Assembly: GCA_902763805.1 (NCBI GenBank)
Contig: CACWTN010000006.1
Coordinates: forward strand, 1-64,000
Direction of reading: 5' to 3'
Length of the DNA: 64,000 bases
DNA from: an uncultured bacterium
Lineage (GTDB): Bacteria; Cyanobacteriota; Vampirovibrionia; Gastranaerophilales; Gastranaerophilaceae
Below the pieces are notes generated by a model, which was not told the origin of the DNA, did not search any database, and saw only the letters and a list, made by a program, of their open reading frames with translations. The position numbers and the translations under genes were made by a program. Shown piece by piece: positions 10,038 through 56,410 of this stretch (position 1 is the stretch's first letter; every line of letters starts with the position of its first letter).

Positions 10038-10087
10038 AATCACTGTTGTAATTTAATTTTCTTCAATGTAATATGAATATAACTAAT

Positions 10088-10159
10088 AGCGGTATCGTCT
10101 AGTGGTTAGGACGGGAGATTCTCATTCTCCAAACAGGGGTTCAATTCCCCTTACCGCCG
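10088..10159 (+). tRNA. tRNA-Glu (anticodon CTC)
   Basis: Folds as a tRNA: D arm 10097-10112, anticodon stem GGAGA/TCTCC around loop TTCTCAT with anticodon CTC at 10121-10123, and T stem AGGGG/CCCCT around loop TTCAATT. The acceptor stem pairs over six bases; as I align it the first pair is A1-C72, a mismatch. CCA is not encoded. A terminator follows at once. Because CTC reads only GAG, the genome should also hold a TTC isoacceptor elsewhere. Confidence 0.9.
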
Positions 10160-10167
10160 AATTTTAT

Positions 10168-10189
10168 GACTCCACTCGGAGTCTTTTTT
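10168..10189 (+). terminator. Terminator after tRNA-Glu
   Basis: GACTCC-ACTC-GGAGTC followed by six T. It lies 9 nt past the tRNA 3' end. A diverged second copy of this tRNA-end-plus-terminator unit occurs 132 bp downstream. Confidence 0.85.
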
Positions 10190-10190
10190 G

Positions 10191-10291
10191 TTGGGGAATT
10201 GAACCCGCCATCACTCACGTGATGTGGGGTTCGCCCCTCTCGCAAAACGTGACATTTAGTCACCTTTTGCTCGGCAGAGTCCTTACCGCCG
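10191..10291 (+). repeat. Palindromic repeat element, copy 1
   Basis: Begins TTGGGGAATTGAACC, the reverse complement of the tRNA-Glu T arm with its loop. Then come a hairpin CATCAC/GTGATG, GGGGTTCGCCCCTCTC (10226-10241, itself a stem with a TTCG loop), a long palindrome pairing GCAAAA-C-GTGAC with GTCAC-C-TTTTGC, and a 23-nt end (10269-10291) finishing in CCTTACCGCCG, the 3' end of tRNA-Glu. The 23-nt end recurs exactly at 11588-11610. No protein is encoded. Confidence 0.7.
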
Positions 10292-10380: not shown

Positions 10381-10998
10381 TTAAAAATCTATTGTTCTTT
10401 CTTCAAATTTATCTTTAGGTTCTATAACTTTAATTTTTTCGTTTTTTAAATAAAAATCTTTTAGACGATTATAATCAAACATTTTTTGATTTTCTCGCCG
10501 CTCTATTTTAAAATCTTCCAAAATTTTACATAATAATTCTTTTTCACCTTTAATAATAAATTTTTTAGGACGGTCATATTCGAATTCTCCCCATATTTCC
10601 GAGCACTCAAGGACTATTTCATTATTTGAAATGTTTTTCATTTCCATTCTACAATACTCATTTTGTGCTGATGTTTCAGTCTGAGGAGCAGAAATAAAAC
10701 TTTCGTGAAATGTTGCTGTTTTACCGTTACGACCTATATTAATATATATTGCTTTTAAATTTTCATATGTTGTACTTTCTGAGAAGTTTTCTTCTATAGC
10801 ATGCCAGGTTGTATAAACATTAATCTCCCAACAGGCAGAACTTATAAACAATCTTCCTCTTTTTTCTTTTACATAGTAATACGCCCTGTTTTTGTCATCC
10901 TTTTCGAGACGTGCTTCACAATAAGAATTTATTAAATATGTCCGTGCACCTTTTTGCTCATAATATGCTTGTAATTTATCTTCATCATCAAAAATCAT
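10381..10998 (-). CDS. Orphan hypothetical protein in the tRNA-Glu islet
   Basis: A 205-residue soluble protein rich in Lys, Glu, Tyr and Asn, with no signal peptide or membrane helix. It has a mixed alpha/beta look (RAYYYVKEKRGRLFIS, then IVLECSEIWGEFEY) and ends in a charged helix. I do not recognise the family. It stands alone between tRNA-Glu-derived repeats on both sides, which suggests acquired cargo. Accessory proteins such as immunity or host-interaction factors can look like this, but nothing in the sequence shows it. Confidence 0.55.
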   Translation of the reverse strand: MIFDDEDKLQAYYEQKGARTYLINSYCEARLEKDDKNRAYYYVKEKRGRLFISSACWEINVYTTWHAIEENFSESTTYENLKAIYINIGRNGKTATFHESFISAPQTETSAQNEYCRMEMKNISNNEIVLECSEIWGEFEYDRPKKFIIKGEKELLCKILEDFKIERRENQKMFDYNRLKDFYLKNEKIKVIEPKDKFEERTIDF

Positions 10999-11189
10999 TT
11001 TTAATCCTCTAAATAATTATGCTAGCAACAGCTTGATATTATAATCATAGCATAAGATATAGATTAGTTTTAAATCGTGTACCCTATATGTACCCATTTT
11101 ATATTTATGAGTTGAAATATTATTTTACAAATGTTGCTTTTTTGTATAAATTGACGTACATTTTACACAAAAATGGCACAGTAAGGGGT

Positions 11190-11333
11190 TTCTCATTCTC
11201 CAAACAGGGGTCCAGCGGATTTGCGTACGAACATAAGTTCGGATAGCGAAGAAACGGAGTGACTAAACCGTTAGGTTTAAAAACAGAGCTTTCTGAGCGT
11301 GGAGCAAATCCAAGACAATTCCCCTTACCGCCG
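11190..11333 (+). pseudogene. Broken tRNA-Glu copy split in the T-loop
   Basis: Bases 11190-11211 match 10119-10140 of tRNA-Glu exactly (anticodon loop to T stem, 22 nt), and 11317-11333 match 10143-10159 exactly (T-loop to 3' end, 17 nt). Between them 105 nt (11212-11316) replace two T-loop bases. The 5' half of the tRNA is missing. It cannot give a normal tRNA as it stands. The exact match of both halves means the copy, the split, or both are recent, or that the sequence is maintained. Confidence 0.75.
11212..11316 (+). mobile_element. 105-nt cloverleaf-like palindromic insert in tRNA-Glu fragment
   Basis: The ends pair (GGATTTGC 11217-11224 with GCAAATCC 11304-11311), enclosing three hairpins in a row: CGAAC-ATAA-GTTCG (11228-11241), TAAACC-GTTA-GGTTTA (11264-11279) and CAGA-GCTT-TCTG (11284-11295). 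It encodes no protein. It looks like a small non-autonomous structured element (REP or MITE type) or the DNA of a structured RNA. No target-site duplication is evident. Confidence 0.5.
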
Positions 11334-11381
11334 GTTACTTTTTATGTATAAAAAGTAACCAAAAACACTTTAAACATTTTG

Positions 11382-11421: not shown

Positions 11422-11610
11422 TTGGGGAATTGAACCACATTGACTTCGTCAACGGGGTTCGCCCCTCTCAGGAAACTTGACATTAAATTTTGTGTCTTAC
11501 TCGTTCGCGTTTAACGGGTCTGCGGTTTTTCTTTTCGTAAGTTTGAATATACCTCAAAGAAAAGACCTCCGCCCTCAGCTCACTCGCGCTCGGCAGAGTC
11601 CTTACCGCCG
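11422..11610 (+). repeat. Palindromic repeat element, copy 3 (long form)
   Basis: Starts with TTGGGGAATTGAACC (11422-11436), a hairpin TTGAC/GTCAA, then GGGGTTCGCCCCTCTC (11454-11469), identical to copy 1, and ends with the same 23-nt sequence (11588-11610) closing in the tRNA-Glu 3' end. The middle is longer than in copy 1 and has its own inverted repeat (CGGTTTTTCTTT against AAAGAAAA...CCG). Confidence 0.65.
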
Positions 11611-55664: not shown

Positions 55665-56132
55665 TTGCTAGGAAGCAACTATAATGTTTTTTTATTAAGC
55701 AATCCATATTTAACAGTACAAAAAGATTTCGCAAACAAAACACTAAACCTTAACAATCATTCGTACTATATTTTAAAACAATTGAGCACAAAAAACAAGT
55801 TTACGAAAACAGGTTTGTTTGTATTGCTTAGTTGTGTAGAAAGAAGAATTAAATACAAAAAACTTAACACAATTCTGGAAAAAGTCGGAATAAAAGATTT
55901 GGGTATAGGATATCATATTTTCAGACACAATGCAGCTTCAAAGCTGGAACAAAACGGAGTAGAAGCATCAACGATAAAAGACATTCTTGGTAACAGTACG
56001 AATGTTGTTTTATCCACTTATCTTAATCAGGGAATAAAGAGAAAACAAGAAGTAATAAACCTGAATAGTGAAAGAATAAAAAAATATGTGAAAAGTTGTG
56101 AAAATATAAAATTTAGGCGATTTTTAGGCTAA
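55665..56132 (+). pseudogene. Tyrosine recombinase (integrase) C-terminal remnant
   Basis: About 155 residues. The HIFRHNAASKLEQ segment (about 104-116) is the H-x-x-R box of tyrosine integrases, and LGNSTNVVLSTYL (about 127-139) matches the L-G-H-x-x-x-x-x-Y box with the nucleophile Tyr; the conserved His of LGH is Asn. The N-terminal arm, the core-binding domain and the first catalytic Arg are missing. It lies 26 bp from the tRNA-Lys 3' end and points at it, the usual place for an integrase. It should be inactive. Confidence 0.75.
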
Positions 56133-56143
56133 AACAACAAATT

Positions 56144-56178
56144 AAAAGCTAAAAAATTTGCGCTTGGCGCGATTCGAA
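56144..56178. repeat. Right boundary repeat of the islet (att-like)
   Basis: A 35-nt direct repeat of 53109-53143 (33 of 35 identical), starting in DNA just outside tRNA-Lys and running through its T-loop. Together with the left copy it brackets the islet. Confidence 0.65.
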
Positions 56179-56231
56179 CGCGCGACCTATCCCTTAAAAG
56201 GGGAGTGCTCTACCTGCTGAGCTACAAGCGC
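56159..56231 (-). tRNA. tRNA-Lys (anticodon TTT)
   Basis: On the minus strand: acceptor GCGCTTG/CAAGCGC, D arm GCTCAGCAGGTAGAGC, anticodon loop CTTTTAA (anticodon TTT), and T stem GCGCG/CGCGC with loop TTCGAAT. One C-T mismatch is at the top of the anticodon stem. CCA is not encoded. It is intact despite serving as the target of the islet. Confidence 0.95.
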
Positions 56232-56410
56232 AAATTTTATAAAATTTGTAAAATCTATTCAATTATCATTAAACCAAATATCTCGGCCTGTGGATTAACC
56301 ACAAGAACTATACTAACAAGAACATATTTCACTGTCAAGCGATTAGTTTAATTTTATTATAAAATTTACGATGTATAATTATATCAAGTACAGACTATAA
56401 GAGAGATATT

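Follow-up and report, generated by a model that had tools for sequence, protein, structure and literature searches.

Among small mobile repeats of bacteria, the REP sequences and REPINs are gene-free, dispersed, rich in palindromes and presumed to be moved in trans as a single strand (PMC3116915, PMC8266576); REPs are palindromes of 20-50 nt preceded by a GTAG-type tetranucleotide, with a RAYT (TnpA-REP) in the genome (PMC8266576). The element described here, which we call X, is likewise gene-free, dispersed and presumed to be moved in trans, but it is a three-way junction of 102-130 nt, its consensus lacks a GTAG leader, and it occurs in genomes without a Y1 match. ISPsy8, ISPa11, ISPpu9/10 and other insertion sequences insert specifically into REP palindromes (PMC1525189). 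X also enters such palindromes, but where those elements carry a transposase, X carries no gene.

Elhai et al. reportedly described, in 2008 (Genome Res 18:1484), cyanobacterial small dispersed repeats (SDRs) of about 21-27 nt that are mobile and are said to occur within structured RNA genes and within other repeats; they are not known to have a transposase. By comparison, X is longer (about 102-130 nt), branched and covarying, and it enters tRNA T-loops among other hairpins. MITEs of the IS200/IS605 type have hairpin ends, leave no target duplication and depend on a Y1 transposase acting in trans; X shows a duplication of 0-1 nt and is not tracked by Y1. X is best filed with small non-autonomous mobile DNA, akin to the REPINs and the cyanobacterial SDRs.

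Two further systems resemble the arrangements in which X is found behind tRNA genes. Integron cassettes are arrayed as tandem units at one anchor site, and their attC sites are folded, with paired outer arms. The units that contain X share the folded site, the paired outer arms and the tandem order at one anchor, but their anchor is the T-loop of many different tRNAs and the arm sequence follows each tRNA, a comparison in which integrases were taken at the level of the general family. The rtT repeats behind tyrT of E. coli (Rfam RtT) are tandem, each with a copy of the tRNA 3' end. In the window (the whole 64,000-nt stretch of DNA that was analysed), by contrast, a structured element splits the T-loop of the 3'-end copies, and an Rfam search matched two tRNAs only, with no match to RtT. 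Small gene-free repeats are common and their movement is rarely traceable; X makes the boundaries, the target rule and the folded form of such a repeat testable, and it reveals that tRNA gene ends serve as landing pads in a sister group of the cyanobacteria that has been little studied.

The tRNA-Glu locus

An intact tRNA-Glu (CTC) gene lies at 10087-10160 on the forward strand (ARAGORN; Rfam tRNA, 58.9 bits), and a displaced piece of the same tRNA lies 1 kb downstream, at 11190-11333. The initial annotation described this piece as 22 + 105 + 17 nt, a layout that is present letter for letter, and its statement that both flanks match the intact gene is borne out by sequence comparison: TTCTCATTCTCCAAACAGGGGT at 11190-11211 and AATTCCCCTTACCGCCG at 11317-11333 are identical to tRNA-Glu (CTC). 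The reading of 105 nt (11212-11316) in place of the T-loop TC is correct as far as the letters go, but a better parse is available. Genome G065 has a homologous site without X (GGGGTTCAATTCCCC), where the T-loop is intact. This site belongs to the right end of a related integrated element, and the join TTTCTCATTCTCCAAACAGGGGTTCAATTCCCCTTACCGCCG runs uninterrupted there. Because of this site, we place the insertion at 11215-11317 (forward strand), 103 nt between TTCA and ATTCC, together with a T-to-C change at 11212. The inserted sequence consists of the 102 nt of X (GCGG...AAGAC) plus an A, and is identified as X by nhmmer, a covariance model, pair counts, the fold and the X-less site. It divides the displaced piece, also on the forward strand, into a part that runs from the anticodon loop to the 5' half of the T-loop (11190-11214) and a part that runs from the 3' half of the T-loop to the acceptor 3' end (11318-11333).

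The surrounding parts all lie on the forward strand except for one open reading frame. Directly behind the intact tRNA, direct and inverted repeats outline a first unit (10161-10291), composed in order of a terminator-like hairpin, an inverted T-arm (10191-10205), a hairpin, the T-arm 5' half GGGGTTC (10226-10232), an insert of a different type from X, termed Z (10233-10280), and a tRNA 3'-end copy (10281-10291). It is followed by a 205-aa open reading frame on the reverse strand (10381-10998), without a significant match in a Pfam search and the probable cargo of an element of about 1 kb integrated at tRNA-Glu, and by the conserved right-end motif of that element, TCGTGTACCCTATATGTACCC (11075-11095), which is common to G006, G065 and G025 at tRNA-Glu. 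Just before the displaced piece, GTAAGGGG (11181-11188) is predicted to be able to pair with CCCCTTAC (11321-11328) as an outer stem, P0, and directly 3' of the tRNA end stands a perfect hairpin, GGTTACTTTTTAT/ATAAAAAGTAACC (11333-11360; inverted repeat I14). A further unit, unit 3, again delimited by direct and inverted repeats (11422-11610), contains an inverted T-arm, a hairpin, a T-arm 5' half (11454-11460), a long Z-type insert (11461-11599) and another tRNA 3'-end copy (11600-11610). The Z inserts of both units occupy the same T-loop position as the X of the window, and in G006 and G025 the equivalent tRNA-Glu site holds a Z insert. Hairpin inserts of the Z type were seen at the two window sites and at loci L156, L157, L160, L163 and L164; they lie in the T-loop of copies of the tRNA-Glu 3' end, where they take the place of AATTCC of the T-loop and T-stem.

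We infer a history of two steps. The element of about 1 kb, with its single 205-aa open reading frame and the right-end motif GTGTACCCTATATGTACCC, would have integrated at tRNA-Glu, like related elements in G006, G025 and G065; the integration would have rebuilt tRNA-Glu and left the former 3' end, everything from the anticodon loop onward, stranded at 11190-11333. Later X would have landed in the T-loop of the stranded piece, where it would be harmless. The identical flanks had been taken to mean a recent or maintained event; the long 5' identity, however, is due to the integration of the 1-kb element and not to X. A spliced tRNA intron, also suggested at first, is excluded here, because no 5' tRNA half exists at this place: the fragment begins at the anticodon loop, the acceptor 5' strand, the D-arm and every other 5' part are missing upstream of it, and the intact gene stands 1 kb away. 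Nor does the site fit a self-splicing intron, which would need both exons and a functional RNA once it is removed. At loci L339 and L340, two adjacent small open reading frames (108 aa; 118-131 aa) lie less than 0.8 kb from the right-end motif of an element integrated at tRNA-Glu, and the pair resembles a toxin-antitoxin system as judged by eye.

Copies and distribution of X

X is a gene-free, multi-copy element of about 102-130 nt. Its conserved ends are GCGGATTT...AATCCAAGAC, flanked by an A on either side, and the insert in the window is one copy of it. Its hosts are Candidatus Gastranaerophilales, gut bacteria that are non-photosynthetic relatives of the cyanobacteria. It is present in 51 of 58 genomes of the genus, at 0 to 60 copies per genome, and in 193 of 382 genomes of the class; among the matches listed, all fall in one family, and a DNA search also placed X in G046 and G049, which belong to a different family of the same order. 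These genomes are mostly draft assemblies of uncultured organisms, in which repeats at contig ends are dropped or partial. The source genome holds a second copy next to an intact tRNA-His, where it sits in the T-loop of a partial 3' end of that tRNA, and identical copies occur at different places in G069. We found no earlier description of such T-loop repeats in Gastranaerophilales in the literature searched.

Outside cellular genomes, a phage-like contig of IMG/VR carries X within a palindrome, with a terminase-like open reading frame judged by eye. A pattern search gave three viral contigs, with the full element in L288 (the terminase-like frame) and L287, the third (L289) looking like a chance match to the pattern; blastn searches of phage and plasmid collections for X gave no match. 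No autonomous version with an internal gene was found, the long or partial copies being simple repeats or nested insertions, nor does any gene recur beside X, the sole large cluster of neighbours being the translation of X itself. In several genomes, an open frame that contains X precedes a pilin-like start (FTLAEVLITL; loci L149, L150, L152, L203, L248 and L221), which could be chance.

A conserved three-way junction

Comparison of 24 diverse copies shows that X folds as a three-way junction, with a stem P1 (GGATTTGC/GCAAATCC), a stem P2 (CGGAC/GTCCG) whose loop varies in length, and one long stem P3 that contains two tandem G.A internal loops and varies at its tip. In the window copy, P1 joins 11217-11224 with 11304-11311, P2 joins 11228-11232 with 11237-11241, and P3 starts at 11246. 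The pairing of the ends proposed earlier is real and corresponds to P1, but the three hairpins in series and the resulting four-way junction give way, on the comparative data, to three arms. Across the 24 copies, 93.6% of cells are paired and 17 pairs show double changes; doubly changed cells number 86, against 28.5 in shuffles (0 of 500 shuffles reach 86), and slid registers do much worse, with 11-45% paired. The compensatory changes that had been proposed as a check on the stems are thus present, and this covariation in the aligned sequences shows that the fold is maintained by selection. Among 191 unique copies, the first tandem GA/GA motif never varies. Outside the tip, G.T outnumbers A.C by 59:21, so that the sense strand is probably the one that folds; RNA and single-stranded DNA would both fit.

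Mobility and insertion sites

X is mobile, since an X-less counterpart, in which the flanks are joined, exists for 68 of 184 copies; this count comes from a search of the available sequence and includes some tandem copies whose counterpart is the edge of another copy. In the best pair, L248 and L257 are 97% identical over 138 nt, and the join between GGACTTAACGTCCTA and ACGTC is perfectly clean; L277 and L245 form another good pair. Junctions are clean or have one extra A, with 0-1 nt duplicated, and an A precedes X in 148 of 201 cases. X and other elements are also nested inside one another; at L275, L217, L172, L196 and L283, other short structured elements interrupt X in P1, P2 or P3.

The targets of X are often prone to form hairpins: REP-like palindromes, other structured elements and T-loops; short tandem repeats are also entered. 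Away from tRNAs, X-less target sites fold better than control sequence taken 150-600 nt from the site (mean z -1.11 vs -0.37, p = 2.5e-7). The preference for hairpins is modest, with z below -2 at 25% of sites vs 9% of controls. Genes near the non-tRNA copies are oriented roughly at random. Genome G069 is rich in paired REP-like palindromes (CACCCACCCCAACCCTCCCTC...; L116-L135), often with X in one arm.

Thirty-nine of the 204 unique full-length copies follow an intact tRNA or tmRNA gene of one of 12 kinds at a distance of 69-97 nt. All 39 are on the same strand as that gene, with none on the opposite strand, and each occupies the T-loop of a partial copy of the gene's 3' end. The left flank is that tRNA's T-stem plus TTCGA (median 8 nt exact), and the right flank continues with the rest of its 3' end (median 17 nt), with related copies counted as separate in both figures; for two Glu (TTC) copies the left match is weak, and in a few of the 39 a second element follows X. 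The initial annotation had proposed a small mobile element that targets the T-loop and a search for other copies in the genome and its relatives. Such copies were found, some of them in T-loops, and the many copies, the precise T-loop sites, the X-less counterparts and the compensatory changes all favour that proposal; the T-loop, however, is one target among several, and most copies sit in other, often hairpin-prone, sequence. Overall, the initial interpretation is partly supported.

Proposed movement in trans and candidate enzymes

We put a probability of about 0.7 on the reading that X is non-autonomous mobile DNA with a selected three-way fold, which inserts cleanly at hairpin-prone sites including the T-loop of the stranded tRNA-Glu piece. 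Transposition intermediates cannot be seen in assemblies; we infer that an enzyme supplied in trans would move X as a folded single strand and join the folded element to a hairpin target.

Candidates for this enzyme were compared with the distribution of X, the absence of a gene from an incomplete genome being weak evidence (G000, G015 and G020 are 99% complete and G005 98%). Reverse transcriptases of group II introns or retroelements do not track X, with no RVT_1 match in seven carriers (G000, G069, G007, G019, G014, G029 and G015). Nor does Y1/RAYT, since X occurs without a Y1 match in G069, G015, G005, G014, G002, G004 and others, and Y1 without X in G033 and G066. The DEDD transposase of IS110 (PF02371) was matched in 2 of 18 genomes, neither of them G000 or G069, and PF07282, of TnpB-type nucleases, in 0 of 18; neither tracks X. 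Tyrosine recombinases, searched as a general family, are present in 18 of 18 genomes and hence cannot discriminate, but they stay candidates.

Units downstream of tRNA genes

Simple clean insertion does not explain the duplicated 3' ends and the matching arm of the tRNA-linked units. In a sample enriched for X, 44 of 117 tRNA loci have a downstream 3'-end copy, and every one of the 44 is split by an insert, with no intact T-arm copy; 30 hold X, and most of the others hold elements with the ends GCG...CAAGAC between flanking A residues. This second family of T-loop inserts, Y, has the inner motif CGTTTAATGC and was seen at L005, L016, L021, L156, L165 and other loci. In the source genome, where loci were chosen regardless of X, 6 of about 35 tRNAs have split 3'-end copies. 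Units occur in tandem, as behind a tmRNA where 226 nt are present twice at 100% identity, and also mixed, with X and then another element behind one tRNA. The arm upstream of the T-stem copy pairs better with the 3' half of the same tRNA than with those of others (score 18.1 vs 15.1 when swapped), and 0 of 2000 permutations reach the observed mean.

These features, along with the presence of tyrosine recombinases in all 18 genomes, would fit integron-like cassettes, in which a unit composed of tRNA 3' end, terminator, upstream arm, T-arm 5' half and X would be joined at the T-loop by a tyrosine recombinase, X and the arm together forming a folded attC-like site, so that with every insertion the tRNA would be rebuilt and the earlier units displaced downstream. 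We nevertheless regard this as an unlikely account of X, which has cleanly entered non-tRNA sites and the stranded tRNA-Glu piece alone, without the rest of the unit, and most units lack a gene. A further proposal, to which we give somewhat less credence, is that the arm, complementary to the T-arm and 3' end of the tRNA, might set retargeting by pairing, while a recombinase would read the three-way junction of X and its relatives; the evidence for such a choice of target is the pairing statistics given above. The T-loop preference and the tRNA-matched arm pose the question of whether targets are chosen by nucleic-acid structure or by pairing.

Other explanations

Movement of X as mobile DNA also has to be weighed against a role as RNA. 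X and its relatives could be conserved domains of functional non-coding RNAs, in transcripts ended by terminators and spreading as passengers, and the RNA-like conserved fold with tandem GA motifs and the terminator-like hairpins after tRNA 3'-end copies would suit such transcripts. This is very unlikely, however, given that copy number varies from 0 to 60 within the genus, the sites are scattered, X-less counterparts are common and the orientation to genes is roughly random; searches of Rfam with four X loci, at E values up to 5, gave no match. A structured RNA expressed in a tRNA scaffold, as the initial annotation alternatively proposed, has the fold as its sole support.

Still less probable is a route by reverse splicing, in which X RNA would enter the loops of RNA hairpins, including the tRNA T-loop, and then be copied to DNA. 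Clean insertion, the nesting of elements in one another and the same-strand placement behind tRNAs all accord with it, but RVT_1 is unmatched in the seven carriers named above, copies away from tRNAs do not clearly favour the sense orientation to genes, and an otherwise whole tRNA interrupted by X was never seen. A chance arrangement or assembly artefact, for which one may note that the sequence sits between repeats where misassembly is possible, and which the initial annotation tied to the lack of a second copy and of compensatory changes, is refuted by the finding of both: independent copies recur by the hundred in many genomes, with covariation and the same T-loop position at 12 kinds of tRNA and tmRNA.

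Elsewhere in the window, a partial tyrosine-recombinase match (PF00589, E 6.5e-8) at 55722-56024 on the forward strand lies beside tRNA-Lys (56158-56232, reverse strand), and is perhaps a remnant of another tRNA-integrated element.
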